Assembly (NCBI GenBank): GCA_017395635.1
Contig: JAFQOE010000047.1
Location: 1-64,000 of the forward strand
DNA: 64,000 nucleotides
Source of the DNA: Lachnospiraceae bacterium
GTDB taxonomy: Bacteria > Bacillota > Clostridia > Lachnospirales > Lachnospiraceae
Direction of reading: 5' to 3'
Made by a program: the position numbers and the translations under genes. Every line of letters starts with the position of its first letter. The stretch's first letter is position 1. This document shows positions 11,629 to 25,780 of this stretch, piece after piece. The notes beneath the pieces were generated by a model. That model saw only the letters and a list, made by a program, of their open reading frames with translations, was not told the origin of the DNA and did no database searches.

Positions 11629-11759
11629 AATTTTTCTCCTTTTTCTTAAATCTCGGTTAGATAACAAAAAACACTAACCCTTCAAAAACTTTTCCCATAA
11701 TTCAATCACGACTCTAAGTCTCCATATACCTCCTCCTTCAGTCAAACATATTGTTTATA
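11629..11759 (-). other. leader region of amylase 2
   Basis: The untranslated leader between promoter and start contains a 6-bp hairpin (GGTTAG at 11655 with CTAACC at 11674). It also has a strong AGGAGGAGG followed by a four-codon frame that stops at once (ATG GAG ACT TAG). Neither can be given a function from sequence alone. Confidence 0.35.
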
Positions 11760-11788
11760 ATTTTACGCAATTTCAGCAATTGTCACAA
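11760..11788 (-). promoter_or_regulatory. sigma-A-type promoter of amylase 2
   Basis: On the minus strand TTGTGA (11783-11788) and TAAAAT (11760-11765) are separated by exactly 17 bp, about 130 bp before the chosen start. An imperfect CAATT/AATTG palindrome fills the spacer. The flanking 11818-11947 region is extremely AT-rich with T-tracts and no gene. Confidence 0.6.
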
Positions 11789-11803
11789 GTCCTTTTTATT
11801 CCG

Positions 11804-11817
11804 TTTTATCGTTTTCA
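11804..11817 (-). promoter_or_regulatory. candidate CcpA cre site
   Basis: The minus-strand sequence TGAAAACGATAAAA matches the cre core TGNAANCGNWWNCA with one mismatch. It lies 16 bp upstream of the -35 box of the amylase 2 promoter. Catabolite control of a starch enzyme would make sense, but this rests on a motif match alone. Confidence 0.45.
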
Positions 11818-11953
11818 GCTTTTTACATTAATTTTTTATTAATTTTTTATTAATTTTAACCATATTTTTTCCTTTCCATCATATTTTTTTCAAAAAAACA
11901 CATGTTTTTTTATTCATCATGCACAAACACTTTTGTTCCTTTTAACACAAAAA

Positions 11954-11991
11954 AGGACAATCTTCTAAAATGTCTATTAGAAAATCGTCCT
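11954..11991 (-). terminator. terminator of the fic / FN3-fragment transcript
   Basis: A 15-bp stem with two G-U pairs, AGGACGATTTTCTAA against TTAGAAGATTGTCCT, is followed by six T on the minus strand. It lies 26 bp past the stop of the 145-aa gene. Confidence 0.85.
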
Positions 11992-12016
11992 AAACAATGA
12001 AATTTATTTGCACTTC

Positions 12017-12454
12017 TTATTTCTTTATTATAAATTTCTTTGATGTAGACCAGTCGGAGTAAATCTTATTTCCACCCAAGAGTTTATAAGTCCATACGCG
12101 AGCATAGTAGGTTTTCTTCTTTTTCAACTTTGTAAAGGTATAATTCTTTACCAGCTTACTCGTGATAGTTTTCGTCTTTTTTCCTTTCTTGAATCCCTTA
12201 TCAAGGGCTATTTGTACCTGATATCCGTCCACATCTTTTTTCACCGACCAGGTGATTTTTGCTTTTTTACCCGTTAAATTCTTTGCAGAATTCACACGGT
12301 AATCAAGCAATCTTGTATTTGCCGAATCGTAAATTCGCATTCTGACATTATTCTCTCCCGACTGATTCACTCCTTTTTTCAGCTCATATTCCCTCACAAC
12401 ATCTGCATTTAACTGTTCAGTCTCTATAAGATAACCATCGTCTCTTTCCTTCAC
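12017..12454 (-). CDS. fibronectin type III-like fragment downstream of fic
   Basis: 145 aa with a GTG start (AGAGG 13 bp upstream), 20 bp after the fic stop. Residues about 55-145 look like a fibronectin type III domain (GKKAKITWS, VDGYQVQIA, YYARVWTY) of the kind that ends many Lachnospiraceae surface proteins. There is no signal peptide or membrane segment. The frame is open into the 3' end of fic, so this is probably the surviving tail of a larger surface protein whose 5' part was lost, perhaps when fic was inserted. It ends in a good terminator and may still be transcribed. Expression as a functional protein is doubtful. Confidence 0.55.
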   Translation of the reverse strand: MKERDDGYLIETEQLNADVVREYELKKGVNQSGENNVRMRIYDSANTRLLDYRVNSAKNLTGKKAKITWSVKKDVDGYQVQIALDKGFKKGKKTKTITSKLVKNYTFTKLKKKKTYYARVWTYKLLGGNKIYSDWSTSKKFIIKK

Positions 12455-12474
12455 TTCGTTGTTCTTTTCCTCTC

Positions 12475-13614
12475 TTACGTATCCTTCCTCAATATCCCTA
12501 AATACTCCTCATACGCAAACACTCTATTTCTCGCAGCATTGGTTTTTTCCTGCAAAATACCAAGTTCTACAAGCTTCTTCACAGCCGTAGCTACTGTATT
12601 ATAACTAATATCTAATTCCTTTGCAGTTCTCTTAATATCAATAATCGGATACTGCTCAATATAATCAAAAACTGCTCGTAAATTATCTTTGCTTCGAGTT
12701 GTCTTTGGAAGTTTTTCTATATTTGTATCATGCAATGCAGAAAGCTGACGAATTGCTTCTAAAGAGTCCGATGCTGCTTTACTCACCGCTTCCAAAAAGA
12801 ATCTTATCCATTGTTCAAAGTTTCCACTTCTTCTAACTTCACCAATTCGATCATAGTATTCTACCTGATTTTTTTTCAAAAAATAGGATATATAAATGAC
12901 CGGTTTAGCAAGCAACCCCTGCTCAATCAGATAGAGTAATATCAACAACCTTCCGATTCTTCCATTTCCGTCCAAAAACGGGTGTATTGTTTCAAACTGA
13001 TAATGAATCAATGCAACACGAATCAATGGATCATAATCCACATTTTCATTGATAAATTTCTCCAAATCAGACATTGCGTTTTGCATATCCTCTACATTCG
13101 GCGGAATATATCTTGCATCTTTCAATGAACAGTTGGCAGATCCAATCCAATTTTGAGAATGTCTGAATTCTCCAGGGGTCTTATCCTGTCCGCGGACATT
13201 TTCCATTAATACTTCATGTATTTCTCTTATTAATCTGCAACATAAAGGTAATCTTTCCAGACGATTCAATGCATATTGTGTTGCTTTCACATAATTAATA
13301 ACATCAGAAACGTCAAGATTTGCATTTGCTTCCACCTCTGGATCTAATACATCATCAAGAGTACACTGTGTGCCTTCTATTTGTGAGGAAATTAATGCTT
13401 CTTTTCTTACATACATTGATATAAACAAATCTGCATTAGAAATTAACTGTGATGCAGTATCAAGTTTTACAAGTTGTTTATTTGCATCTACTAAAAGTTT
13501 TACAATTTCCTCATCCATTTCAATTTCCGGCATAGGTGGTAATGGATTTGGTTTAAAAGATTGATACGTAGCCTCTCCTGTTAAATTGTCAACATATATT
13601 CCTGCTCGACTCAT
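12475..13614 (-). CDS. Fic-family AMP transferase with N-terminal inhibitory motif and C-terminal winged helix
   Basis: 379 aa. Fic enzymes transfer AMP (or related groups) to hydroxyls of target proteins. The active-site motif HPFLDGNGRIGR is at 211-222 with the catalytic His at 211. The N-terminal Fic_N region carries SSQIEG (76-81), matching the S/TxxxE(G/N) inhibitory helix of self-contained class II Fic proteins, so no separate antitoxin is expected. Residues about 300-370 form a helix-turn-helix (DIKRTAKELDISYNTVATA), suggesting DNA binding and autoregulation. Two inverted TTGAAATAA pairs cover its promoter. A diverged copy of its C-terminal part lies at 17680-17955. Start confirmed by GAGGTG upstream. 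Target unknown. Confidence 0.9.
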   Translation of the reverse strand: MSRAGIYVDNLTGEATYQSFKPNPLPPMPEIEMDEEIVKLLVDANKQLVKLDTASQLISNADLFISMYVRKEALISSQIEGTQCTLDDVLDPEVEANANLDVSDVINYVKATQYALNRLERLPLCCRLIREIHEVLMENVRGQDKTPGEFRHSQNWIGSANCSLKDARYIPPNVEDMQNAMSDLEKFINENVDYDPLIRVALIHYQFETIHPFLDGNGRIGRLLILLYLIEQGLLAKPVIYISYFLKKNQVEYYDRIGEVRRSGNFEQWIRFFLEAVSKAASDSLEAIRQLSALHDTNIEKLPKTTRSKDNLRAVFDYIEQYPIIDIKRTAKELDISYNTVATAVKKLVELGILQEKTNAARNRVFAYEEYLGILRKDT

Positions 13615-13630
13615 ATATTTTCACCTCTTT

Positions 13631-13720
13631 TTGAAATAAGTACATTTAGTATACCCCTTTTATTTCAAAAAATCACTAGGTTATTGAAATAAAAACGCTT
13701 ATTCCTACGCTTTATTTCAA
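13631..13720 (-). promoter_or_regulatory. fic promoter with two inverted TTGAAATAA pairs
   Basis: TTGAAATAA occurs at 13631-13639 and 13684-13692, and its complement TTATTTCAA at 13660-13668 and 13712-13720. The two inverted pairs have centres about 52 bp apart, close to five helical turns. A -10-like TATACT (minus strand) lies inside the first pair. This arrangement suggests an operator, possibly bound by the Fic protein's own helix-turn-helix domain. Confidence 0.55.
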
Positions 13721-13825
13721 AAAGTCATTTTTTGCAAGCATTATAGCTGCTTTTCTTCTCAAATACTCCTTATAACTCATTACATACAATTCATCATAAC
13801 CATTTCTAATGATAGGAAACGGCAT
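13712..13825 (-). CDS. possible 37-aa peptide following a spoIVB tail
   Basis: An ATG one base after the stop of the spoIVB-tail copy opens a 37-codon frame beginning MPFPIIRNGYDELYVMSYK and ending in a basic helix (EYLRRKAAIM). The composition looks protein-like rather than random, but no ribosome site is visible and its end overlaps the outer Fic operator arm. It may be the truncated start of a former neighbour gene. Function unknown. Confidence 0.3.
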   Translation of the reverse strand: MPFPIIRNGYDELYVMSYKEYLRRKAAIMLAKNDFLK

Positions 13826-13826
13826 A

Positions 13827-13946
13827 TCAATGCTCTAACATGTTCTCTATAAATATTCCGTAACCACGTGCAGGATCATTGACTAAAACATGAGTCACGT
13901 CACCCACAATTCGCCCATTTTGGAGAATTGGCGAGCCCGACACGCT
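13827..13946 (-). pseudogene. displaced spoIVB 3' tail, copy 1
   Basis: Forty codons including stop encode the C-terminus of SpoIVB from the catalytic-Ser motif (SVSGSPILQ) to IFIENMLEH. They match the last 37 residues or so of the intact SpoIVB gene at 22489 with a few conservative changes. The homology starts abruptly at the SGSP codons. Upstream is GTTGTTCCCTGCTTGACA (minus strand), which differs from real spoIVB but is shared with copy 2. Best read as an old target-gene end pushed away by an insertion. Confidence 0.85.
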
Positions 13947-13981
13947 CTTGTCAAGCAGGGAACAACAAAATTTCAAAATAG

Positions 13982-14012
13982 CCATTACAGAGAACCTAAT
14001 CTCCATAATGGG
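13982..14012 (-). terminator. terminator-like hairpin before spoIVB tail copy 1
   Basis: CCATTATGGAGA pairs imperfectly with TCTCTGTAATGG on the minus strand, with T-rich sequence following. It sits 34 bp past the stop of the preceding broken gene. Its right arm ends GTAATGGCT, the same as the hairpin before copy 2. Confidence 0.5.
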
Positions 14013-14045
14013 TATATGAATTTTTGAAGCAAATCGAATTATTCT

Positions 14046-14559
14046 TTATTCACATCTAGCAATTCTACAAGGAATCCATTCTACAGGTTCTCCTTTATCT
14101 CGTATCTGCATTGCAAAATTTTGTACATCTTCAAAATCATTTTCTATCAAACAATGCTTATTAAATCTTACTAACTCTAATTCTTTGTGTAAACTATTAC
14201 ACAAAAAGGTATGAAATCCACTAAAATCCCATCCCAAAATATCGTAACCCAGCATAATATTTCTGTCTAATTCTTTTAGCATCCTCAATATTTGAAAAAC
14301 GACCATCTATTGCCAAGCACCTTTCAAACATAAAATGTATATCATTTTGTAGTAAAAATGCTTTCGCTTCAGTTATATCCCATTTTTTATAATATTCAAT
14401 TTTTTCCCTTTTTCTATCATTAATAAAATAACAATAGGTCAAATCAGGATGTGTACCAGAAAAACAATCACTTACAGTAATTATTTCATCAGCTTCTATA
14501 CCAAGAAAATCAGGAATTTTTAATTTTTCACATATATAATATCCTAAAACTCTATACAT
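14046..14559 (-). pseudogene. unknown protein split by a frameshift
   Basis: Two overlapping frames together look like one protein of roughly 170 aa. The first runs 14559-14221 (start ATG preceded by AGAGGTG) and ends GLRYFGMGF. The second runs to 14046 and, inside the overlap, reads DILGWDFSGFHTFLCNSL. One inserted base or two deleted bases near 14225-14300 would join them. The joined product is soluble, acidic to neutral, and not a family I recognise. It lies downstream of the 134-aa gene, in the last position of its block before the spoIVB tail. A sequencing error instead of a true mutation cannot be excluded. Confidence 0.5.
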
Positions 14560-14631
14560 TACTTTCACACCTCTTCTGTGATGAAAATTCAAATAATCGT
14601 GTTCATTCAATCTCGATATGAAACTAAATCT

Positions 14632-15033
14632 TTAACATTGCCTATAACTCGTACTAATTGTATCAAAATCTCGCTCAAATGCATCATAATCAAATTTGCC
14701 TTTAGACTTTATTTTATTGACTGCTTTTAAAATCATCCTTTTTGTCAAAAGAATTTTCTCAGTGCTATCTGCATTATAATATTCTTGAAAATCCATTCGT
14801 ATAGAAATAATTGCACAGCTTTTGTTGCTAATCAATTTTACTGACTCTTTCCATTTTCCATCATCATATAATTCCTGTGGTGCAGCAACTGGTTCAATTC
14901 CAATGGTATGCAATGTATCACTATATTCTTTGTCCTTAAAAAACATATACACATTCTGACAAAACCGATATACTTCATCATCAATACCATAGTACTGATT
15001 AAAATGCGCAGGCGTATTGATATTTAGTTCCAT
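14632..15033 (-). CDS. unknown cytoplasmic protein, 133 aa
   Basis: Start placed at 15033, 6 bp after an AGGAGG; an adjacent ATG three bases earlier is equally in frame. It begins MELNINTPAHFNQYYGID and contains mixed helices and strands, no signal peptide and no membrane segment. The family is not recognised. Position and size resemble the small immunity-like proteins that accumulate in Firmicute toxin loci, but no toxin is adjacent, so that is only a guess. The next gene downstream is the frameshifted protein, 72 bp away. Confidence 0.6.
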   Translation of the reverse strand: MELNINTPAHFNQYYGIDDEVYRFCQNVYMFFKDKEYSDTLHTIGIEPVAAPQELYDDGKWKESVKLISNKSCAIISIRMDFQEYYNADSTEKILLTKRMILKAVNKIKSKGKFDYDAFERDFDTISTSYRQC

Positions 15034-15094
15034 CATGTACCTCCTCCCACTATTCAATATTTTGCTTTTTTATATTTTCTATATATTCTCAAAC

Positions 15095-16414
15095 TTACAT
15101 CTCATCCAACAAAAATGCCATATACAATGGAAGCGTAAGAATCTGATTCTCATTACCCACATTATAATCACCTAATTTAATTGCACTTTTAACATGATAC
15201 TTTTCCGGATGATTTAAAATGGTTCTTGTACTCTTGGTATTGCCTGTTGTTGCTTTTACCTCTACTAATGTACACTCACCCTTATATCTCATAACAAAAT
15301 CAATTTCCAAACCGGAATCTTTATGGTAGTAATATAATTTGCGGCCAATTTTAGAAAAAATATCTGCAATTAAATTTTCAAAAATAGCACCCTTATATCC
15401 ATAAAGCTTTCCTTGTAAGACATCATATTGTGTGCCATCCTCCAGCATACTGATAAACAGTCCACAATCTTTCATATATACTTTAAAAACATCCTCTATT
15501 GCATTACCATCCAAAGGCAGTTCTGTAATTGATAAGTTATAACACCGTGATATAATTCCCGCATCTTCTATCCACTGTAGACTTCCTATATATTTTGAGG
15601 CAGTAGAGCCTTTTTTAATAACAGCATATTGAAACTTTTTATTTTCCTTACTTAATTGCTTTGGTATGGACTGAAAGCATTCTTTGATTCTGGATTTATC
15701 TGCTTTCTCCGCATACTTAACCATATCATCCTCATATGAGCGAACAATATCTCGTTGAATTCGAAGCACCTCATTCATTTGCTTAGTATTAACAAAGGTT
15801 TGTACCACATCCGGCATACCACCAACAACAGTATATTGCAATAAAAGCTGTTTCATTTTGTTATGAATCGCTTCCGGAACTGGTTTTGCCTCTTCCAGAC
15901 ACTTTCTTAACATATTTATTATAGTTTCTCCAATATCATTCGCCCAAAGAAACTCCTCAAAATCTAATGGATACATATCAATAACTGTCTCATAGCCTAC
16001 CGGAATAGATCTAGGTTCTTTTCCATACCCCTTTACCCCCAACAATGAACCGGTACCAATCACATCAAAGCGACCATCCACTTGAAAAAATTTAAGTGCG
16101 GTTCTTGCCTCCGGACATTCCTGGATTTCATCAAGAATAAGTACTGTTTCTCCTTCTTCAAATATTGCGTCTTTTCCCAACAATGCTGAAAGCATCATAA
16201 TAATGTTGTCAATTTCTAATGAGCCTGAAAATACAGAAGCATAATCCGGATTTTCAAAAAAATTCAGATATACAACATGACTATAATTATTCTTTGCAAA
16301 TTCCAATACAGAGAAAGTCTTTCCACACTGTCTGCATCCTTTGATAATCAAGGGTTTATGTTCTTTTGTATTTTTCCAATCGATAAGTTTTTGTTCTATT
16401 TTTCTTTTCAACAT
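15095..16414 (-). CDS. AAA ATPase with DUF4143 domain
   Basis: 439 aa. Start taken at 16414 because AGGAG lies 10 bp upstream; the frame is open further but without a site. N-terminal AAA_14 ATPase: Walker A GCRQCGKTF (about 30-38), Walker B LILDEIQ (about 95-101). The C-terminal half is DUF4143 with the restriction-like ending seen in the family (SGLEIDFVM ... CTLVEVKATTG). Such proteins are common, often horizontally moved, and of unknown function; the DUF4143 end resembles PD-(D/E)XK nucleases. It is cargo of the smaller spoIVB-tail block. A spacer of 183 bp separates it from the 94-aa gene. Confidence 0.88.
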   Translation of the reverse strand: MLKRKIEQKLIDWKNTKEHKPLIIKGCRQCGKTFSVLEFAKNNYSHVVYLNFFENPDYASVFSGSLEIDNIIMMLSALLGKDAIFEEGETVLILDEIQECPEARTALKFFQVDGRFDVIGTGSLLGVKGYGKEPRSIPVGYETVIDMYPLDFEEFLWANDIGETIINMLRKCLEEAKPVPEAIHNKMKQLLLQYTVVGGMPDVVQTFVNTKQMNEVLRIQRDIVRSYEDDMVKYAEKADKSRIKECFQSIPKQLSKENKKFQYAVIKKGSTASKYIGSLQWIEDAGIISRCYNLSITELPLDGNAIEDVFKVYMKDCGLFISMLEDGTQYDVLQGKLYGYKGAIFENLIADIFSKIGRKLYYYHKDSGLEIDFVMRYKGECTLVEVKATTGNTKSTRTILNHPEKYHVKSAIKLGDYNVGNENQILTLPLYMAFLLDEM

Positions 16415-16552
16415 AACAAAATCAACTCCTTTTATTGTAGTATATTCGCTTTTTACAACTTTTTCAAGGGAGTTTTTACATAAAACATATATTATTTTAG
16501 TCAGATGTTTGCACATTGTACAACTTTTAGTCAAATAGTTATTCAAAATAAA

Positions 16553-16582
16553 ACAGGCATATTCACTTTTGAACACGCCTGT
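16553..16582 (-). terminator. terminator of the 94-aa gene
   Basis: ACAGGCGTGTTCA pairs with TGAATATGCCTGT (two G-U pairs) on the minus strand, followed by a T-rich tract. It lies 16 bp after the stop codon of the 94-aa gene. Confidence 0.8.
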
Positions 16583-16597
16583 ATCTATAACACACAT

Positions 16598-16882
16598 CTA
16601 TAAGTCCATCAATATTTTCATCTTCTCTGCCTTGTCCCAGTCATTACCATAATATTTTGCAAGATAATTAATTGTTTTATCCAATTTTTCTAGTTCTATT
16701 TCATCTCCGCCAAAACATACAGCCAAATAGGTGTACATCCTATTGTTTATATCTTTATTTAAAATCTTCATAGTCTCATTATCCAAACATCTTCCTTCAG
16801 AGTGTAACTCCTCTACAATTCCGTTACGAAAAACCAGATGTCTTAATGCTCTTGACATATTTTGTAATACTTCTTCATTCAT
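16598..16882 (-). CDS. unknown 94-aa protein next to a spoIVB tail
   Basis: A small, acidic, helix-rich protein (begins MNEEVLQNMSRALRHLVF; ends WDKAEKMKILMDL). The start is 25 bp after the stop of spoIVB-tail copy 2, with GAAGGGAG as ribosome site. A truncated, frameshifted copy lies at 22042-22243, again just downstream of a spoIVB end, so gene and tail appear to travel together as one end of the inserted blocks. No family recognised. It has its own terminator. Confidence 0.7.
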   Translation of the reverse strand: MNEEVLQNMSRALRHLVFRNGIVEELHSEGRCLDNETMKILNKDINNRMYTYLAVCFGGDEIELEKLDKTINYLAKYYGNDWDKAEKMKILMDL

Positions 16883-16907
16883 AATTTTATTTCTCCCTTC
16901 TTGATTA

Positions 16908-17027
16908 TTAGTGCTCTAGCATGTTCTCTATAAAAATCCCATACCCTCTCGTCGGGTCATTGACCAGCACATGGGTCACGGCCCCCACAATCTTCCCATC
17001 CTGAATAATCGGGCTCCCGCTCACTTA
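16908..17027 (-). pseudogene. displaced spoIVB 3' tail, copy 2
   Basis: Thirty-nine codons plus stop match the SpoIVB C-terminus (VSGSPIIQ to IFIENMLEH). They are closer to the intact gene than copy 1 but GC-richer than the surroundings. The codon before the Val-Ser-Gly-Ser-Pro is TAA. Upstream, the frame reads CSLLDT as in copy 1 (CSLLDK), and that sequence does not occur in intact spoIVB. No start codon, so it cannot be expressed by itself. Confidence 0.87.
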
Positions 17028-17086
17028 CGTGTCAAGTAGGGAGCAACATTTTTCTACAAATTTTGATGTTTTTCTTTATATATAAC

Positions 17087-17135
17087 AAAGCCATTACTAA
17101 AATCTGTGTAAAACACGAAATTTAGTAATGGCTTT
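17087..17135 (-). terminator. 15-bp perfect hairpin before spoIVB tail copy 2
   Basis: AAAGCCATTACTAAA and TTTAGTAATGGCTTT are perfect complements around a 19-bp loop, immediately after the stop of the 17144 gene. The T-run is weak. The right arm (minus strand) ends GTAATGGCTTT, as in the hairpin before copy 1. A long AT-rich spacer then leads to the conserved junction. Confidence 0.6.
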
Positions 17136-17143
17136 ACTTTTAT

Positions 17144-17545
17144 TCATCGCTTGTTATTATTCCTCAAAAACCATTCCTTCCCTATATCCTCTAAAATACA
17201 ACCACAATTACATAAGTTATCCCACAATTGACGAATACCCACTATCTTTTCTATATCTCTCAACGACATTTCTGTATCAGACTGATTTAAATTCCAACAT
17301 GGTTCATCAATATTTTCTCCTATTTGTACTAAATTTTCCAAACTATTCTCTTCCCATTTTGTGCTTCCTTTTTCCAACAAAGAATCCAACTCATTTTCTA
17401 CAATTTTTAAAGCGTAAAAATATTTTGATGCACTCCACGCATCAAATCTACGAATAATTTTAGCAAAGTGCATAATATCTTCTCCTAATGTTTCATCGCA
17501 AAAATATTTCAATTCCTCTTTTTGATAGTTAGCTTTATTAAACAA
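17144..17545 (-). CDS. unknown protein, probably 5'-truncated
   Basis: 133 aa if the TTG at 17545 is used. The frame is open upstream to about 17665 with protein-like sequence (ITIYIPIKN, KDVIPIEWYAKR) but contains no ATG or ribosome site, so the true start seems to be lost. The product is soluble and acidic (ends CILEDIGKEWFLRNNNKR); family not recognised. The break lies next to the truncated fic copy, suggesting both were trimmed by the same recombination. It occupies the last position of its block, like the frameshifted gene at 14046 does in the other block. Confidence 0.45.
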   Translation of the reverse strand: MFNKANYQKEELKYFCDETLGEDIMHFAKIIRRFDAWSASKYFYALKIVENELDSLLEKGSTKWEENSLENLVQIGENIDEPCWNLNQSDTEMSLRDIEKIVGIRQLWDNLCNCGCILEDIGKEWFLRNNNKR

Positions 17546-17679
17546 CGCAAATAATTTAGCTCTCTTTGCATACCATTCAATAGGAATAACATCCTTTTTT
17601 TGTATTATTATATTTTTTATTGGAATATAAATTGTAATCTCATCTTGTCTCTATGCTAAATTTTACAACATCTATTTCT

Positions 17680-17955
17680 TTATAAAGTTTTTCTTGCAGC
17701 ATTGGTTGTTTCCTGCAAAATCCCAAGTTCTACAAGTTTCTTCACCGCTGTAGCTACGGTATTATAGCCAACCTCTAATTCCTTTGCAGTTCTCTTAATA
17801 TCAATAATCGGATACTGCTCGATATAATCAAACACAGCCCTTAAATTATCTTTACTTCTAGTCGTTTTCGGAAGTTTTTGTAAATTTTTATCATATAAAT
17901 TTGAAAGCTTATTGATTGATTCCAAAGAATCCGCAGCAGCTTTACCTACAGCTTG
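17680..17955 (-). pseudogene. C-terminal fragment of a second fic gene
   Basis: The translated segment (AVGKAAADSLESINKL through NTVATAVKKLVELGILQ) matches residues about 270-365 of the intact Fic protein at 12475, with most codons identical. The whole catalytic domain is missing. The fragment starts within the stop codon region of the 361-aa gene and ends at ARKTL. An internal ATG would give 81 aa containing only the winged helix, which might still bind the Fic operator, but no ribosome site supports it. Confidence 0.8.
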
Positions 17956-17956
17956 C

Positions 17957-19042
17957 TTATTCTAATTGTCTTACACCACACATCATTAAATTTGTAGTCA
18001 AAACCTCTTGATTAATATAGCACTTGAACTCTGAAGAAATAAGCTCACCAAATCTTTGCCATACGGTATCTTCATCTGATAATCGCTCCAATATTGTAAC
18101 ATCCACCACGTTACGCACTGCCTCATCACCTTTTTTCCACATGATTTCAATGAGGGAAATATAGCAGTCTATCATCAATGTATTTTCATCACATCCATCG
18201 TATAATTTCAGCAAAGGTTCTGTTACCATATCTGCAGCAAAAAGATGCAATAAAATTTCATTATAATCGTTCATATGCTCTTGTAGAACAACTCTTCCAT
18301 CTGAAATCATATCTGCAATCAAAATAGCACATTCCGTAACATTCAACTTTCTGTTATTATCCTGCTTTAAGATGTTTTCTAAATGCTCTAATGTTGTTCT
18401 CTCCCAAAACTCTTGAACCATAGATTCGTATTCACTACGTGCAAAACACCAATTCAAATCCTGGAACCAACGCACATTTCCTTCGGTTTCATAGTAAGGT
18501 AAGGTATAATTCATACGTCTTCTATACAGTTCTTCTTCCCAATTCTCCCCAATCCATTCCTTCCATAAATAACTTGTAGTATTCTCAAGTGCTATATTAT
18601 CACCGTATTTTTCCCAATCCTCATCTGAATAAGCTTCCAGACAAAGAATTCCGCTTCTTTTTTCTTCTTCAAAATCTTCATTGTCATGAAGCACATATCC
18701 CACTCTGTTCCAGTACACAAAGTCTTTCGTTTTGTCAACTTCAACCACGATTACAGTACAGGAAAAATCCAAATCATCCGGGCATAAAAGAATCGGTAGT
18801 ATTGTAGAATTATCTCTGCGAATCAGTTCCCATACAAAGCGAACATCCCCTTTGAAATCCAATTCTTTACTCCATGCCGGACATAAACCATCAAAGGTGC
18901 CACCGATATTTCTTAAATATTCACTATCTATTTTTGAAACATATTCATCCAAATATTGTGGCAATACTTTTCCGTCAACACTCCAATATTCTTCCTCATA
19001 TCCATATTGCGTCATTACTTTTTGCATTTTTATTCGATTCAT
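17957..19042 (-). CDS. unknown 361-aa protein
   Basis: A soluble, acidic, tryptophan-rich protein (residues about 45-110 hold GTFDGLCPAWSKELDF and SCTVIVVEVDK; later DWEKYG, WKEWIGENWEEELY). The C-terminal 120 residues are helical and hydrophobic-patterned. No signal peptide or membrane segment, and no catalytic motif I can name. GGAG 8 bp before the ATG supports the start. It follows the 19093 gene by 50 bp on the same strand and is likely co-transcribed. The look is of a SUKH- or immunity-type accessory protein, which is inference only. Confidence 0.65.
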   Translation of the reverse strand: MNRIKMQKVMTQYGYEEEYWSVDGKVLPQYLDEYVSKIDSEYLRNIGGTFDGLCPAWSKELDFKGDVRFVWELIRRDNSTILPILLCPDDLDFSCTVIVVEVDKTKDFVYWNRVGYVLHDNEDFEEEKRSGILCLEAYSDEDWEKYGDNIALENTTSYLWKEWIGENWEEELYRRRMNYTLPYYETEGNVRWFQDLNWCFARSEYESMVQEFWERTTLEHLENILKQDNNRKLNVTECAILIADMISDGRVVLQEHMNDYNEILLHLFAADMVTEPLLKLYDGCDENTLMIDCYISLIEIMWKKGDEAVRNVVDVTILERLSDEDTVWQRFGELISSEFKCYINQEVLTTNLMMCGVRQLE

Positions 19043-19092
19043 TCTTGTTTCTCCAAATATGCAACAGTATACTATTCGGTCATGTAACTAAA

Positions 19093-20382
19093 CTAATCCC
19101 AATACGAATTTACCAAGTCCCAACATTGATCCTTAGAATTATGATTAACCAAATAATTTATCATATACTGTTCCGATTCCTCGTTTCGATGGTTTAATAA
19201 TTCTTTTATTGCACTTTTTCGCGGTAACTGCAATAAATATTCATCTTCTTCGTCTAGTATCATCTTGGCAATAATATATGCTTCTTCCTTACAACTTTCA
19301 GATAAATATCTCAGTAAATAATCCAGCTTAATAGCACTTTCTTCATCCTTTGATAATAGAAGCGACTTTGCATACTCTACCATGTTACCATTGATATCTA
19401 CTTCTGCATTAATAATCCCTGTCAAAGTTTGTATCGTAGGATATGTACTTATATATCTTTCAGGTAATTTTCTTCCTGTTAAATTATACACGGGTATATT
19501 AATTTCCTTTTCTTTTACACCTTTAACCGGTACATAATCCTTCATTCTTGCACCTGGTTCAGCGTCAATCAGTATGCCTGCAAATCCCACTTTTTCAATT
19601 AATGTATCCTCATCAGCATACTTTGCCCCCCTGACAAACCGAAAACTTTCAGGAGCAATAATTGTGAGACAATTCAGTCTTTTCCCAAGCGAGGATGTTG
19701 CGCATGCTTTATGGTGACCGTCAAGAAGGGCACAAACAAATCCTTCTTCATAATAAGCAAGGCCTCTAGGCAGGTTACTACCATTTTTCATAATTTGGAT
19801 ATATTCATCCACTCTTTCTTCGTGAATCAGTTCACTTGATTGAGTTGGATAAATATATGCCGGATAACCTTCTACTGAACACAAAAACTCCGAATCATAA
19901 TACTCACTACATGAAGCTTCATTATAAGTCAGTTCATTCGGCACTGAATAGAAAAATGCACCTTGCCCGTCAGAGGGATATAGTTTTACATCAGCCAGGA
20001 CGTAATATCCATCCCTCAACAAACCTAATAACGGTTTAATACTTTCAGCTGCATCTTTAATACCTTTATATTCTGTATTCATGCATTCTCTCACTTTTAT
20101 CAATTCTTCAGAATTAATATTTTCAATTCCATATCCGGTTGCCAGCATTCCTGCACAAGTCGGACATATCGGATACTTCCCCTGAATAATAGGTTTATCA
20201 TCCAGCAACAACTGTGAGAAGAAAGCATAATCTTCGTCTTCCTCACTGATACGATGTGCTAATGTGCCTTTTCCGTTTTTTACACGAATCAAAACAGCTT
20301 CGTCGCACCATTCAATATCACTGACATTAATTGATTTTAGTATTTCCACATTCGGTTTTCTATTAAAAATATTATATTTCAT
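19093..20382 (-). CDS. unknown 429-aa protein with Cys pair and DGHH motif
   Basis: Contains CPTCAG (about residues 73-78), a possible metal-binding Cys pair. It also has ALLDGHHKACATSSLG (about 217-232), which resembles the D-G-H-H/N-R motif of ParB/sulfiredoxin-fold proteins, although the rest does not show a clear ParB domain. The C-terminal about 100 residues look like helical repeats. Start supported by GAGGTGAC upstream. The AACATT repeat array at 20465-20502 lies in its promoter region, matching the array upstream of the AlbA_2 gene, so both may be under the same regulator. Function not assigned. Confidence 0.65.
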   Translation of the reverse strand: MKYNIFNRKPNVEILKSINVSDIEWCDEAVLIRVKNGKGTLAHRISEEDEDYAFFSQLLLDDKPIIQGKYPICPTCAGMLATGYGIENINSEELIKVRECMNTEYKGIKDAAESIKPLLGLLRDGYYVLADVKLYPSDGQGAFFYSVPNELTYNEASCSEYYDSEFLCSVEGYPAYIYPTQSSELIHEERVDEYIQIMKNGSNLPRGLAYYEEGFVCALLDGHHKACATSSLGKRLNCLTIIAPESFRFVRGAKYADEDTLIEKVGFAGILIDAEPGARMKDYVPVKGVKEKEINIPVYNLTGRKLPERYISTYPTIQTLTGIINAEVDINGNMVEYAKSLLLSKDEESAIKLDYLLRYLSESCKEEAYIIAKMILDEEDEYLLQLPRKSAIKELLNHRNEESEQYMINYLVNHNSKDQCWDLVNSYWD

Positions 20383-20462
20383 ATCTTACGTCACCTCTAA
20401 ATTTCAATAATAATTAATGTTTTCACTTTTTTATTGTTTATGATGCAGAAAACCAACTCTAT

Positions 20463-20508
20463 GGAACATTGCAAAAACATTACAAAACATTTCGATACAT
20501 TACATATC
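20463..20508 (-). promoter_or_regulatory. phased AACATT repeats, array A
   Basis: AACATT-type hexamers begin at 20465, 20476, 20486 and 20496 (last one TACATT), spaced 11, 10 and 10 bp. The array ends GATACATTACATATC, identical to the end of array B. It lies between the stop of the AlbA_2 gene and the start of the 429-aa gene, 80 bp before that start. The helical spacing suggests one face of the DNA bound by a multimeric regulator. Confidence 0.65.
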
Positions 20509-20526
20509 GCTCTAATACCGAACTCG

Positions 20527-21924
20527 TCAATTGTTCTTCAGCTTTATACGTGCCGTGGGTGACTTTGTATTTCCATCTCGATAGATAATGCCTTCTGCAA
20601 TAAGTGGATTTATTACCTCTGTCAAGAATTGACTTCTGCTCTTGTAATTTGTAACCGCCTGAAGTTCTTTTATACGCTTTGGTCCTTCCGTTCTCAACAA
20701 TTCTAAGATTTCCTGTGCCTCTGATAAATCTTCGTGCAATATATATGTTTCACTTTCTTCATAAAGTCTATCAAACAAGCGCAAATCTAAAAATCCCGGA
20801 TATATCAAAACAACAGGTTGTAAATGCTCTGCACTGTCGCTGTAGCTTTCAATCATTGTCTGAAATCCTGTTCCTCCACGCTCCATCAAATTTGCTATAT
20901 CCAAACAAGCTGCTATAATCGAATTTCTTCTAATAGACGGAATAGACCCTACCGGATATTGTTCATAGCTCTTTGGCAATAACCACGAACCCGGAGAGAC
21001 AATATCGATCCTATCACTATAGACATCCACATCGATTTGTGTCCCTGCAATCGAGTAATCTCTATGCGCAATAGCATTAACCAATGCTTCTCTAATTGCT
21101 TCTTTAGGATAAGCACGCACTTCTTCTCGACCACCATCCTCTGTCTTACGCCATCCGGTTTTAGTGTTTCTTTCTATAAAATTCAATGCATTTTGAAAAA
21201 CTTTTGCCAAAGAACCTTTATATCTTCCACTATCAAGCACTGTACCGGTTTTATCTTTTCCCTTCCAAAGACGACAGCAAATCAAAGAGTCATCACCGGT
21301 GTAATTATCACCAAACATAATAAAACCTGATTTTGCATAGCCATCTTTAGAAATTATTTCTTCATTTTGCAATTCTTTGATGGTAGGTACTGTGGAAGCT
21401 TTTCTATATTCTCTACATAAATCAAGATATTCCTTCCATCCATTTTCTTCATATAGTATTTCACTTGTTTCGTTATCCACTCCGTATTTTCTTTTTGATA
21501 ATGATATGATATCTTCCGGTGTTGCAGGAGTCGAATTTCCGTCCCCTTTTATATAAACTGTTTCATTAAAATCACCTTCTCGATATCTCACAACAGAATC
21601 AGCCGGAGCAACATTTACTGCTAAAACAAATCTTTCGGCATTTGCGTCCACACTTCTCATCATATATCGGATTCTTGCATGAGGGAAAATATGTCTATCG
21701 TTAATTCTTGCTATAAGATTTTTGGTCTTATCTATTTCATCCAGTTCAATACCAAACGCCTCACCCTCATTGGAAACCCCAACGAACATGATTCCACCCT
21801 TACCATTAGCATAACCTACAATCGTTTTCGCCCATTTGATAGGATTCTCGGGATTTAATTGTGACTTATATTCATAATCTAAATCCTCTGAAATAGCATC
21901 CGGATACAACTCTGATATTTTCAT
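20527..21924 (-). CDS. AlbA_2 (Schlafen-like) ATP-binding transcriptional regulator
   Basis: 465 aa of the COG2865 type often annotated as RecG-like regulator. N-terminal AlbA_2 domain (about 12-125; EYKSQLNPENPIKWAKTI, ANGKGGIMFVGV). A central to C-terminal GHKL-type ATP-binding fold follows (about 280-350; EALVNAIAHRDYS, DRIDIVSPG), then a winged helix at about 390-460 (IKELQAVTNYKSRSQFLTEV). GGAGGTGATGG before the ATG fixes the start. A TACAAT -10 box (21948-21953) lies just downstream of array B. Members are usually autoregulators or defence/stress-island proteins. Here it is the lead gene of the larger spoIVB-tail block. Confidence 0.88.
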   Translation of the reverse strand: MKISELYPDAISEDLDYEYKSQLNPENPIKWAKTIVGYANGKGGIMFVGVSNEGEAFGIELDEIDKTKNLIARINDRHIFPHARIRYMMRSVDANAERFVLAVNVAPADSVVRYREGDFNETVYIKGDGNSTPATPEDIISLSKRKYGVDNETSEILYEENGWKEYLDLCREYRKASTVPTIKELQNEEIISKDGYAKSGFIMFGDNYTGDDSLICCRLWKGKDKTGTVLDSGRYKGSLAKVFQNALNFIERNTKTGWRKTEDGGREEVRAYPKEAIREALVNAIAHRDYSIAGTQIDVDVYSDRIDIVSPGSWLLPKSYEQYPVGSIPSIRRNSIIAACLDIANLMERGGTGFQTMIESYSDSAEHLQPVVLIYPGFLDLRLFDRLYEESETYILHEDLSEAQEILELLRTEGPKRIKELQAVTNYKSRSQFLTEVINPLIAEGIIYRDGNTKSPTARIKLKNN

Positions 21925-21961
21925 TCCATCACCTCCAACATTCTCTTATTGTAAGGATAGC

Positions 21962-22046
21962 AAACATTACGGAACATTGCAAGAACATTACCAAAACATT
22001 GCGAAACATTACTAAACATTACTAAACTTTGGGATACATTACATAT
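21962..22046 (-). promoter_or_regulatory. phased AACATT repeats, array B
   Basis: Eight AACATT-like hexamers begin at 21963, 21973, 21984, 21995, 22005, 22015, 22025 (AACTTT) and 22035 (TACATT), a steady 10-11 bp step. They lie directly upstream of the AlbA_2 start and overlap the expected -35 region. The distal end GATACATTACATATC is shared with array A. Autoregulation by the AlbA_2 protein is the simplest reading. Confidence 0.7.
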
Positions 22047-22243
22047 CATCACCAAAACACGCTGACAAGTAGGTATACATCCTATTATTTATATCTTTAT
22101 TCAATAGTTTCATAGTCTCATCATCCAAGCACTTACCTTCAGAATGCAATTTTTCCACAATTCCATTACGAAATACAAGGTGTGTTAACGCCCTTGAAGT
22201 ATTCTGTAATTTTTTTCCATCATAAATTCAATTCTCCCTTCTT
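22042..22243 (-). pseudogene. truncated, frameshifted copy of the 94-aa gene
   Basis: Clear nucleotide similarity to 16680-16900, including the GAAGGGAG ribosome site. The coding part translates as LQNTSRALTHLVFRNGIVEK through INNRMYTYLSACFGDDM and then stops at about residue 57 of 94. The ATGs at the 5' end are out of frame with this stretch, so it is dead. The 3' part was replaced by array B sequence. Confidence 0.8.
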
Positions 22244-22249
22244 ACTACG

Positions 22250-22425
22250 TCCAAGCAGCTTCTGTAAACAACCTTAAATTGCTTACTTTCATTGAGAAAT
22301 GCAGTTCGATTCCGCTTTGCTTCATCTCGCTGTATGGCTTTCGCCATATAGTCCAGTCATAAGCCGTGCGACATTCGCAGACCTTCGGTCTTGCTCATGT
22401 ACGGCTTTCGCCGTATGTCGGAACA
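22250..22425. other. GC-richer noncoding segment with GNRA-type hairpins
   Basis: Three small perfect hairpins sit within 90 bp: 22333-22348 (TATGGC/GCCATA) and 22400-22415 (TACGGC/GCCGTA), each with a GAAA loop on the minus strand, and 22379-22391 (AGACC/GGTCT). AAGCCGT at 22361 can also pair with ACGGCTT at 22401, giving an alternative fold. There is no gene. The composition differs from neighbours, so this may be a repeat element or structured RNA transcribed behind spoIVB. Confidence 0.45.
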
Positions 22426-22467
22426 TCGAAAAAGACTTCATGGTATGCAAACTTCCCAGAAGTCTTT
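22426..22467 (-). terminator. terminator of spoIVB
   Basis: AAAGACTTC and GAAGTCTTT form a perfect 9-bp stem on the minus strand, followed by T's, 22 bp past the spoIVB stop. The short spacer between stop and stem is unusually GC-rich (CCGGGCGGCGGG-like) for this genome. Confidence 0.7.
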
Positions 22468-22488
22468 TCCTCGTCCCGCCGCCCGGGC

Positions 22489-23541
22489 TCAATGCTCCAG
22501 CATATTCTCTATAAATATCCCATATCCTCTTGTTGGATCGTTTACAAGCACGTGGGTTACCGCCCCAATAATCTTCCCATCTTGCAAAATCGGACTGCCA
22601 CTCATTCCCTGCACAATCCCTCCTGTCAATTCAATCAATTCCTCATCCGTCACATGAATTTCCAACTCCGAATCGCCATTATTATTTTCATGTACATCTG
22701 TTATTTCAATATCATATAATTCTTTCTTACCGCTAACATAGGATTGAATCTGTGCTTTTCCGAGTTTGACATCTTCTTTATCTGCCAACTCTAACGGCTC
22801 CGATTGATTCACCTCATTCAAAAATTCATCTGTCAATTTTCCAAACACGCCATACAAACAGTTTTCCTCGATACGTCCTACCACATTTTCTGTCTGATAC
22901 GCAATCATCCCTTCAATTTCACCAGGTGTTCCAACCACACCTTTCTCCACACCAAATATATCCGCCTCATATATTTCACCACTAGATACAGAAAGCACTT
23001 CTCCGGTATCACTATCGTTCACACTGTGACCTAATGCGCCAAATGATTCTCCTATTACATAAGTAATGGTTCCTAACCCCTGCAAGTCATCCTTTACCCA
23101 TATCCCTACTTTATAGGTATCCGTATCAGCCTGAACAGGTTCTACTTTAACATCTATCTTTTCATTATTACGAACCACTTCAAATACTAATGTATCACCG
23201 TTACAGTTCGTGATATTTTCCACCAACTGTTTTTTAGTTTTCATAGACTCCCCATTTAATCCCACTATATAATCTCCCTGCATAAGCTTATTCTTGGCAG
23301 GAGAACTATTTTCCCCATTTATTCCAGTCACCTCTCCCGTATCAATTACCAATATGCCTTTTGTATTAATATAGATTCCCACTGTATTCCCCATCGGAAT
23401 TGCCTTTTTCACATCTATTTCATTCGCTACCGGAATCGAAATACTTTCTGTTTCTTTTTTATAACCCAAAAATGCTACCACCAGTATAAAAATAATATTT
23501 GCAGACAGCAGACATTTTAGAAACAACTTATATTTTCTCAT
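22489..23541 (-). CDS. spoIVB: SpoIVB, sporulation signalling serine peptidase (S55)
   Basis: 350 aa. In the forespore SpoIVB is secreted into the space between the two membranes and cleaves SpoIVFA, which releases pro-sigma-K processing in the mother cell. Start at 23541 is preferred (AAGGAG 9 bp upstream) over an ATG six bases earlier. One N-terminal membrane anchor (about 8-27), a PDZ domain (about 95-165), the catalytic His in LGHSVND and the catalytic Ser in GMSGSPIL about 37 residues from the end. All are intact, so the gene should be functional. The last 37-39 codons are duplicated at 16908 and 13827. It follows recN, as usual in Firmicutes, but spo0A does not follow it here. Confidence 0.94.
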   Translation of the reverse strand: MRKYKLFLKCLLSANIIFILVVAFLGYKKETESISIPVANEIDVKKAIPMGNTVGIYINTKGILVIDTGEVTGINGENSSPAKNKLMQGDYIVGLNGESMKTKKQLVENITNCNGDTLVFEVVRNNEKIDVKVEPVQADTDTYKVGIWVKDDLQGLGTITYVIGESFGALGHSVNDSDTGEVLSVSSGEIYEADIFGVEKGVVGTPGEIEGMIAYQTENVVGRIEENCLYGVFGKLTDEFLNEVNQSEPLELADKEDVKLGKAQIQSYVSGKKELYDIEITDVHENNNGDSELEIHVTDEELIELTGGIVQGMSGSPILQDGKIIGAVTHVLVNDPTRGYGIFIENMLEH

Positions 23542-23573
23542 CTTCATTTTCTCCTTTCACGTTACATAAAAAA

Positions 23574-23607
23574 ACTCATAATAAATGCTCTTACATTTAT
23601 TATGAGT
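23574..23607 (-). terminator. strong terminator of the xse-dxs-recN operon
   Basis: ACTCATAATAAATG and CATTTATTATGAGT form a perfect 14-bp stem with a 6-nt loop, followed by seven T on the minus strand. It separates recN from spoIVB, so spoIVB needs its own (forespore) promoter, which must overlap this hairpin. Confidence 0.92.
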
Positions 23608-23625
23608 TCTATCATATTGTCTCAA

Positions 23626-25299
23626 TCAGTTAACCTTTGCCTTGACTGCCAATTCTTTCATTTCTTTCGCACTTTGAATTACTGTATCGGTAATCTTTAC
23701 GCCACCAATCAGTCTTGCAAGCTCCATAATCTCGCTTTCAGAATCCAACTGTGAAATACTGGTAGTTGTCTTACCATCACATGCCTGTTTTTCAATCAGA
23801 TAATGGTGATTCGCCATCGCCGCAATCTGCGGTAAATGTGTAATACAAATTACCTGATGATTCTTTCCAATGCCATGTATCTTTTCTGCCACCATCTGTG
23901 CAGTTCTTCCACTAATTCCTACATCAATTTCATCAAAAATCAAAGTATTAATTCGATCCGCATCTGCCAAACATGACTTCATAGCCAACATAATTCTTGA
24001 AAGTTCACCACCGGAAGCAACTTGCCATAATGGCTTCATTTCTTCACCTATATTCGTCGAAATAATGAAATATGGGTTATCAAATCCACTCGCACTGTAG
24101 TTTTCCTGTTTTTCAAAAACCATATCAAACTGAACATCTAAGAAATTCAAGTCAACTAATGCATTCTTAATATTAGCAGAAAGTTCCGTTGCAACTCTTT
24201 TACGTTCCTGACTTAATTCTTCACTTGCAGTCTCTAATTGCTTTTCAACCGAAGCCAACTTTTGTCTAAGTTCTGCCAGATACTGCTCTTGATTAAGTAC
24301 CTTTTCATACTGTTTATCTAATTGTTCACCATATGCCAAAACTGCTTCAATTGTTTTTCCGTATTTTGCCTTTAGGTGATTGACCGTATTCAATCTCTCT
24401 TCAAGCAGCCTGAAATCTTCATCTGAAAATGTGTTTTCTTCCAAATAATTCCTTGCACTTCTTCCAAAATCCGATATCAAATCAGAAACAGTGAACAGCA
24501 TGTCTGTCATGGATTCTAATTCCTTATCATATTCAGAAACAGAAGTCATTTGTCTAACTGCTCGGTCTATTTCCTCATAAGCTGAATCTTCCACAAAATG
24601 ATATGCATTCGAAACACTCTCAGTAATATTCTTACTATTAGATGCTTTTCGGTACTGCTCTTCTAATTCATCATCTTCACCAACTCTTAAGGATGCTTCC
24701 ATAATTTCATTGCGCTCAAACTCCATCAAATCCAACTTACGTCGTTTCTCTTCCTCATCCATAGTATTGGCCAAAAGCTCTGTTTTTATCTTTGCATATT
24801 CTTTATATATTTCACAAACCTCTTCCTTTAATGAATCCAGTGTATCATGCCCATATCGGTCTAATAACTTTAAATGATTACCCGGAATCAATAAAGATTG
24901 ATGTTCATGTTGTGCATGCAAATCTAATAATAAATCCGCAATCTCGCGAATCTTTGTAAGTGTTACCGTTTCACCATTCACCTTACTAACACTGCGATTA
25001 CCGATAATTTTGCGGGAAAGAATCAATTCCCCACCTGTAATATCCATTACTTCTAATTCCTGCAAACGTTTTATAACTTCCGAATCTTCAATAGAAAAGA
25101 GTAATTCTACCAAACCATATTCTGCATCTTTTCGAACAAAATCTTTCGGCATTTTTCCACCCAACGCAAGCATAATAGAATCAATTACGATGGACTTTCC
25201 AGCTCCGGTTTCACCTGTTAAAATATTCAAATTATCTTCAAAATTGATGTCAATTTCATCAATTAATGCCATATTCTTAATATGTAAATTTAATAGCAT
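23626..25299 (-). CDS. recN: DNA repair protein RecN
   Basis: 557-aa SMC-like ATPase that helps repair double-strand breaks. Walker A GETGAGKS (about 29-36), a long coiled-coil middle (about 150-370), signature LWQVASGGELSR and Walker B LIFDEIDVGISG near 455-470. Length is normal. Its ATG lies immediately after the argR stop, so the two are translated together. It is the last gene before a strong terminator. Confidence 0.95.
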   Translation of the reverse strand: MLLNLHIKNMALIDEIDINFEDNLNILTGETGAGKSIVIDSIMLALGGKMPKDFVRKDAEYGLVELLFSIEDSEVIKRLQELEVMDITGGELILSRKIIGNRSVSKVNGETVTLTKIREIADLLLDLHAQHEHQSLLIPGNHLKLLDRYGHDTLDSLKEEVCEIYKEYAKIKTELLANTMDEEEKRRKLDLMEFERNEIMEASLRVGEDDELEEQYRKASNSKNITESVSNAYHFVEDSAYEEIDRAVRQMTSVSEYDKELESMTDMLFTVSDLISDFGRSARNYLEENTFSDEDFRLLEERLNTVNHLKAKYGKTIEAVLAYGEQLDKQYEKVLNQEQYLAELRQKLASVEKQLETASEELSQERKRVATELSANIKNALVDLNFLDVQFDMVFEKQENYSASGFDNPYFIISTNIGEEMKPLWQVASGGELSRIMLAMKSCLADADRINTLIFDEIDVGISGRTAQMVAEKIHGIGKNHQVICITHLPQIAAMANHHYLIEKQACDGKTTTSISQLDSESEIMELARLIGGVKITDTVIQSAKEMKELAVKAKVN

Positions 25300-25300
25300 A

Positions 25301-25768
25301 TTATCCCTCCAACATATCGTCAGATGCTACTTTTCTGATATCCGCAATAATTTCTTTACAAAATGAGCTACTGCGAGCCACACAAAAAATGGTATCATCT
25401 CCCGCAATACAACCCATAAAACCTTGAATATTCATGTTATCTAATGCAGCAGCAACTGCCATAGCCATACCGGACACGGTATGAATTACAATCATATTCT
25501 CAGCATAATCCATATTCAAAATACCGGCACTCAATACCTGATGATATTTTTTGAGTACATCAGTATCTGCACTTTGAACAATGGCATATTTTTGCTTACC
25601 ATTTCCATCGGATATCTTTGTCAAGTTAAGTTCTCGGATATCCCGCGAAATCGTTGCCTGTGTTGTTGAAAAACCAGACTTTGTCAATTCAGCTAATAAT
25701 TCATCCTGTGTTTCTATATTTTTTAATTCAATAATCTCTTTAATCTTATTCTGTCTTTTTTCTTTCAT
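25301..25768 (-). CDS. argR: arginine repressor ArgR/AhrC
   Basis: 155 aa, family length about 150. The N-terminal winged helix (ELLAELTKSGFSTTQATISRD) binds ARG boxes. The C-terminal domain (about 85-155; GCIAGDDTIFCVAR) binds arginine and forms hexamers. It sits between nadK and recN in the conserved Firmicute order. The gap to nadK is 12 bp. Confidence 0.95.
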   Translation of the reverse strand: MKEKRQNKIKEIIELKNIETQDELLAELTKSGFSTTQATISRDIRELNLTKISDGNGKQKYAIVQSADTDVLKKYHQVLSAGILNMDYAENMIVIHTVSGMAMAVAAALDNMNIQGFMGCIAGDDTIFCVARSSSFCKEIIADIRKVASDDMLEG

Positions 25769-25780
25769 TTCTACACCTGT

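Follow-up and report, generated by a model that had tools for sequence, protein, structure and literature searches.

Several described systems bear on the locus treated here, the 3´ end of the sporulation gene spoIVB in a 64,000-nucleotide stretch of a Lachnospiraceae bacterium (positions 1 to 64,000 of contig JAFQOE010000047.1, assembly GCA_017395635.1; hereafter the window, in our coding contig C91 of the 197-contig draft genome G000). The staphylococcal cassette chromosomes (SCC, SCCmec) and the SCC-like ECC cassette chromosomes use large serine recombinases (LSRs), CcrAB or CcrC, at the 3´ region of rlmH; they form composite islands and include recombinase-free pseudo-SCC elements, according to the relevant portions of PMC3900703 and PMC6222049. 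Streptococcal integrative and conjugative elements (ICEs), as portrayed in parts of PMC4701971, carry at one end three serine integrases in the same orientation, related by their position in the triplet, and they disrupt mutT, traG or hsdM with 2-8 bp repeats. Sporulation genes are targets as well. The skin element in sigK and gin in gerE interrupt their genes and are excised in sporulation, gin being a non-phage element with three serine recombinases (PMC5595907, in part), and yin in yabG is a further gene-intervening element (PMC10747680, in part). We consider it highly probable that the 3´ end of spoIVB is another attachment site, used by mobile elements with an LSR integrase, normally three LSRs in tandem. 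There is good support for serial insertions that displaced the old gene end.

The mechanism works like that of SCC and ECC at rlmH, but by membership the elements are neither SCC nor gene-disrupting serine-triplet ICEs. With SCC and ECC they share the LSRs, an attachment site within the 3´ portion of a conserved gene, stacking with repeated attachment sequences and the existence of recombinase-free elements. The target gene likewise keeps a full 3´ end, here seen in cis in the window and in two relatives (G014, G305), all of them LSR-free, and the window itself holds two displaced gene ends, each behind a short conserved stretch (the arm), stacked and without any LSR. Unlike in SCC and ECC, the target is spoIVB and not rlmH, the exchanged gene end comprises 37 codons and holds the catalytic serine, and the LSRs, which come in threes, score only 40-84 bits with Ccr models, whose cut-offs are 700-900; no Ccr is present in the window cassettes. 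Like the streptococcal ICEs, relatives of the window cassettes (L118, L127, G168, G161, MT836038.1) carry three adjacent, position-orthologous LSRs. In contrast to those ICEs, there is no LSR triplet in the cassettes of the window, G014 and G305, and spoIVB is whole in all three, whereas ICE targets are disrupted. Pfam named no conjugation module among the 10 proteins of the 36.9 kb contig G800 or in the window cargo; the parts covered are incomplete. Skin, gin and yin are also serine-recombinase elements in a sporulation gene; unlike with skin and gin, spoIVB is whole with the insertions in place. A literature search lying mostly outside subscription journals, and therefore weak evidence, found no report naming spoIVB as an integration site, and the main text of an LSR survey (PMC10083194, main text as distinct from supplements) does not mention it.

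The spoIVB junction and its arm

The features on which the argument rests are as follows.

22489-23547, minus strand: intact spoIVB, 352 aa (Peptidase_S55, E 3.3e-78; TIGR02860, 301.7 bits, slightly below the cut-off of 305.25)
22603-22604, minus strand: presumed crossover dinucleotide TG, end of the Met codon between GM and SGSP (from the divergence point of two genera and the alignment of 15 junctions)
22489-22602, minus strand: present 3´ end of spoIVB, probably supplied by an element
17024-17048, minus strand: right arm of cassette 2 (attachment half-site), TG at 17022-17023
16908-17021, minus strand: displaced spoIVB end (tail 2), same strand as the intact gene
13943-13967, minus strand: right arm of cassette 1, TG at 13941-13942
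13827-13940, minus strand: displaced spoIVB end (tail 1), outermost and most diverged, same strand as the intact gene

An earlier note, made from the window's sequence alone, had proposed that an intact spoIVB ending at 22489 is accompanied by two same-strand segments encoding only its C-terminus. Nucleotide and protein matches and shuffled controls confirm this. Tails 2 and 1 score 108 and 55 bits (blastn) against the intact 3´ end, compared with a maximum of 29 bits among 50 shuffles (2-mers shuffled, window 1-22400), and at protein level the two tails are 92% (E 1.7e-20) and 80% (E 3.3e-18) identical to the SpoIVB end. Within the own genome this end matches three places at E<=10, namely the intact end and the two tails. 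The tails start at the SGSP serine, as had been supposed, but they hold 37 codons and a stop (114 nt), not 39 codons: homology runs from the Ser codon after the Met of GMSGSP to the stop, and the 5´ part of spoIVB is absent at both. Neighbouring ends lie 3081 and 5581 bp apart, start to start, in agreement with the 3.1 and about 5.5 kb given before. Two features had escaped the note: the arm before both tails and a left end common to both cassettes.

The arm, TGTTGYTCCCTRCTTGACA, precedes each displaced end, 6 bp before TG, and is missing from the intact gene. The two copies in the window are near-identical, with 19 bp containing two Y/R differences, then 6 variable bp, then TG. Including these two, we collected 15 junctions from at least four genera, a second family and metagenome contigs; decayed displaced ends in two further genomes (G148, G370) are not counted. 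When the junctions are anchored on TG, the motif TTGACA stands 6 bp before it in 11 of them and 7 bp before it in three (MT836038.1, G630, G751), and is altered in one (L148). The arm reads TTGTTGCTCCCTACTTGACACATTCGTG in G014 and TGTTGTCCCATCCTTGACACAAGCATG at the outer end of G305, and 22 bp of the tail-2 arm are identical to the arm of a recombinase element found in G168 and G245.

This last element fixes the crossover point. Its copies in G168 and G245, two genomes of different genera, share 4989 of 4991 bp over the LSRs and the arm and diverge from the base directly after TG, into different spoIVB ends. As the same element parts exactly after TG in two genera, spoIVB is an attachment site. 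Three IMG/VR contigs (L118, L126, L127) likewise show one arm followed by three different spoIVB ends. The TG closes the Met codon preceding the catalytic serine codon, and the next codon encodes this serine, the residue aligned with the alanine in the solved structure 9LNF, an S378A variant. Thr393 has been proposed as the third catalytic residue of SpoIVB, and Thr-His-Val as a PDZ-binding motif (PMC12502668, in part); the Thr393 equivalent and the Thr-His-Val motif both fall inside the exchanged part.

With at most one mismatch the arm pattern matches 82 of 397 genomes of the family sample, and among 30 such loci whose surroundings were inspected (L073-L102) the window's own is the only junction. 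Exact matches in the same scan number five, four of them spoIVB junctions (two in the window, G168, G245) and one not (L075 in G119). Among 25 IMG/VR stretches with the exact arm three are spoIVB junctions (L118, L126, L127), and in 21 no spoIVB end is seen. The remaining one is L103 (IMG/VR 3300028327_000554, positions 1-65), where a different set of serine recombinases is followed by the arm TGCTCCCTACTTGACACATTCG and the contig stops with no spoIVB end reached; this arm is possibly an attP or belongs to another target. A left-end pattern has no match in IMG/VR. A 44-aa SpoIVB end used as a query matches 11 records of the phage collection and 3 of the plasmid collection, from which MT836038.1 was examined further. 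Tail 2 together with its arm, compared as DNA with the phage collection, finds 3 records, which match in the tail part only.

Large serine recombinases and the locus in relatives

At 11 of the 15 junctions the arm lies behind the last of the tandem LSRs (lineage C), with LSRs A and B upstream, so that there are normally three; LSR A of L126 is only partly present, being cut by the contig end. The order in L118, L126 and L127 is tandem LSRs, arm, spoIVB end. These LSRs carry Resolvase and Recombinase domains, and the stop of LSR C lies 32-64 bp from TG in the five cases measured. The earlier note had advised looking for complete integrase-bearing elements at spoIVB. The integrases exist, as described, but no element was found complete on one contig. 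The note's central proposal, serial insertion at the spoIVB 3´ end, agrees with the occurrence of this junction in LSR elements that sit in the identical codon elsewhere, in different genera.

Lineages A, B and C are orthologous by position: among L118, G168, MT836038.1 and G161 identity is 38-61% for A-A, 44-58% for B-B and 45-62% for C-C, compared with 23-33% across lineages. Searches for lineage C matched 3 of 397 genomes in the family sample (G161, G168, G245; E<=1e-120) and 2 of 391 in the class sample (G630 and G751, both of another family; E<=1e-130), in addition to MT836038.1 and further IMG/VR contigs. Taking the five genomes, MT836038.1 and 15 IMG/VR loci at >=48% identity gives 21 lineage-C loci. 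The arm and a spoIVB end follow lineage C in 11 of them (in G245 and L118 the contig breaks off within this end), and in four the contig stops before the informative stretch (L149, L151, L153, L157). The own genome holds another three tandem LSRs (C114:49917-54911, L239), situated behind a resolvase-like fragment and a MazF/PemK-like ORF. This triplet belongs to a different element: only its first member is lineage A-like (44%), and no such arm is seen behind it.

The locus varies among relatives, as the note had expected. All genomes compared are draft assemblies. In 18 of 26 genomes of the genus (the window's included) spoIVB is directly followed by spo0A; three genomes have no spo0A directly behind it (window, G009, G014), three have contigs that stop after spoIVB (G003, G004, G021), and two yielded no spoIVB end (G006, G008). 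G014 shows the whole arrangement with one insertion on one contig: full spoIVB, 7.7 kb, arm and displaced end, an MCP gene and spo0A, the 7.7 kb holding an M13 peptidase, an FtsX/ABC transporter and LytTR two-component genes. In the family sample the SpoIVB end was matched in 252 of 397 genomes at E<=1e-6, and more than once in nine. G305 has two spoIVB ends 10.0 kb apart that share 122 of 126 nt, and the arm accompanies the outer of the two. Its cargo comprises NsnA- and NsnC-like proteins with an ATPase, a TOTE primase-helicase, HEC-02A and HEC-02B, which are largely candidate defence genes. Decayed displaced ends are present in G148 and G370. Two other genomes, G261 and G341, have four matches each to the SpoIVB C-terminus, with the intact copies located among the matches listed; since the intact spoIVB of G341 adjoins a spo0A-like gene, the extra ends there lie elsewhere.

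In the window's own assembly spo0A was not found, the nearest candidates being a 32% partial match and one Spo0A_C domain on contig C170 in a different gene setting. The island may for this reason continue beyond window position 1, where the contig ends, and the flank at 13826, which the note had taken as the outer boundary, cannot be equated with native chromosome. Tail 1 need not be the original host end and may have come with an older insertion. Across loci, spoIVB ends of the MLEH type have a spo0A-like gene within 1.5 kb in 1 of 13 cases, versus 24 of 34 other loci (>=900 bp; Fisher p 1.6e-4), a figure affected by the choice of loci for tail similarity and by non-independent rows.

Integration model and its alternatives

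We suggest the following model. A circular element would carry an attP composed of the arm, TG and its own spoIVB 3´ end (37 codons and stop). Recombination at the TG of the Met codon, presumably by the LSR set, would join the host spoIVB to the element's end, so that the gene stays whole, and the old end would come to lie beyond the arm, on the opposite side of the element. The site would thereby be restored, and the next element to insert there would push outward the end brought by the first, giving the stack seen in the window.

Such a model implies that the present 3´ end of the intact spoIVB arrived with an element, which is likely from sequence comparison. The body of the gene (up to 600 nt before the crossover) has a mean identity of 65.6% to 22 loci of the genus and 52.2% to 31 others, and for the tail the means are 70.9% and 74.5%, respectively. 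These tail figures alone do not prove import, because the other loci were mostly chosen by tail similarity (28 of the 31 other-genus loci were ranked by it, the remaining three being L141, L146 and L232; a row for tail 1, read in a wrong frame, was left out) and because the best other-genus match of the tail DNA, 79.0%, barely exceeds that of the best genus-mate, 77.1%. The non-coding left-end module appears to be the better evidence. Downstream of the intact stop codon, identity to the same place is 83.7% over 178 bp in G121 and 82.7% over 185 bp in G386, both of other genera, and 77% over 88 bp in G370, and among the fetched genus loci only G003 matches the module (94.6% over 74 bp, 82.6% over 69 bp).

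Several observations, together with the narrow difference in tail matches, weigh against the model. Neither an excised circle nor a single contig spanning both ends of an LSR-bearing element came to light, and a full spoIVB with a displaced end in cis occurs only in LSR-free cases (window, G014, G305). No intact spoIVB end was found in the assemblies of G168, G630 and G751, nor was any spoIVB noticed among the ORFs of the 26 kb upstream of the LSRs in G751. The intact spoIVB of G245 is on another contig, where the next 18 kb hold no LSR; in G161 the contig of the intact gene ends about 0.5 kb behind it. As restoration of the gene is not seen in these five genomes, for LSR-bearing elements it is deduced from the LSR-free cases. 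Further, G009 carries a 5.2 kb insert without a displaced end, and six of the 17 lineage-C loci with enough sequence (L137, L152, L154, L155, L156, L158) have neither arm nor spoIVB end behind the LSR; their recombinases probably use another attachment site.

How did cassettes without an integrase enter the site? The note had reported none among the window cassettes, and tblastn with 14 serine recombinases agrees, with no match within 13.8-22.5 kb among the best 20 rows (E up to 2.3). All four LSR-free cases (two in the window, G014, G305) keep a half-site-sized arm with unrelated cargo, and no LSR remnant was found in the window and G014 (tblastn) or in G305 (Pfam of 8 ORFs). On these grounds we favour, with modest confidence, movement in trans: the cassettes look like pseudo-SCC elements, mobilized by LSR-bearing relatives.

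A serious possibility, to which we give somewhat less than an even chance, is that the window cassettes are decayed autonomous elements whose own LSR set was later lost by deletion. The own genome contains no recombinase of a matching lineage at E<=1e-120, one window cassette has a broken 94-aa ORF and a Fic remnant, and the displaced ends of G148 and G370 have decayed. Random deletions, however, are expected to leave some LSR remnant or to remove the arm, and the four cases with a recognisable arm did neither. Trans movement and decay both fit the integration model. Homologous recombination involving similar spoIVB ends and left-end modules, in place of a site-specific process, is an improbable route for the spread of the displaced ends. 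Tails and modules are indeed similar across genera, the window cassettes share both ends and not the middle, and recombination between IS copies is reported in the mobilisation of ECC (PMC6222049, in part), but this would not account for the common arm, for homology beginning at one and the same base or for the LSR set at 11 of 15 junctions; homologous recombination may have reshuffled cargo afterwards. An origin of the tails in old tandem duplications of the complete gene, as their common strand and order might suggest, is already contradicted by their start at the same codon behind an unrelated arm, the lack of the 5´ part, the single spoIVB next to spo0A in most genus genomes and the foreign DNA shared by two genera up to the same base. 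Neither intact intermediate spoIVB genes nor an invariant locus, which the note had named as signs against serial insertion, appeared in the genomes examined.

Beyond the integration model, we tentatively propose a two-tier system across Clostridia. Autonomous elements with LSR triplets would supply the integrase, at this one chromosomal site, for small recombinase-free cassettes with defence, transport and regulation genes. Each integration would swap the catalytic end of SpoIVB (the Ser378 and Thr393 equivalents and Thr-His-Val), and the ends would circulate and stack, which could let elements influence sporulation. If these assumptions are true, rlmH is joined by a second site at which serine-recombinase cassettes can stack while their target stays whole, here a developmental gene of gut Clostridia. 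Accessory and defence genes could then accumulate directly behind it. The junction would provide a sequence signature for integrase-free cassettes, the recombinase set and its attachment site could be tested in vitro, and the effect of an imported SpoIVB catalytic end on sporulation would become a testable question.

Cargo of the window cassettes

Both cassettes and the adjoining gene are encoded on the minus strand.

22274-22488, minus strand: left-end module behind the spoIVB stop, with hairpins; similar to G121 and G386
22045-22233, minus strand: broken copy of the 94-aa ORF, left part of cassette 2
20527-21924, minus strand: SLFN_AlbA_2 / HATPase_c_4 protein, cassette 2 (family match)
19093-20382, minus strand: protein with a DGHH motif (by eye), cassette 2; no family match in scans
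17957-19042, minus strand: DUF7674 protein, cassette 2 (family match)
17680-17954, minus strand: C-terminal Fic remnant, cassette 2; 84% identity over 265 nt with the Fic gene 12475-13614
17144-17545, minus strand: 133-aa ORF of no named family, cassette 2
16598-16882, minus strand: 94-aa ORF, left end of cassette 1
15095-16597, minus strand: AAA_14 / DUF4143 ATPase, cassette 1 (family match)
14046-15057, minus strand: three small ORFs of cassette 1 from the ORF list (14632-15057, 14221-14610, 14046-14306)
12475-13614, minus strand: Fic protein beyond tail 1 (PADLOC SoFic, E 2.2e-123)

The AlbA_2, AAA/DUF4143 and Fic assignments of the earlier note are thus supported by family matches or, for the Fic remnant, by DNA similarity. 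Family scans gave no match for the small ORFs 14632-15057 and 14221-14610. The left ends of the two cassettes correspond, the 94-aa ORF and its broken copy being 79% identical over 193 bp, and their middle parts are unlike each other. The Fic protein beyond tail 1 may be part of an older insertion. Rfam over 10000-26000 at E<=1 returned a single match near 23556-23620, miRNA-like and due to chance, so the structured stretch 22274-22488 is not explained by a known RNA family.

Farther out, where spo0A is expected, lie two very large secreted-protein-like ORFs (282-5795 and 5890-11667; 1837 and 1925 aa), neither with a relative in the fetched genus loci; the latter is amylase-like by eye only. 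Finally, short repeats of the type AACATTAC flank the AlbA_2 gene on both sides (20448-20508, 21956-22047) and are possibly its operator sites.

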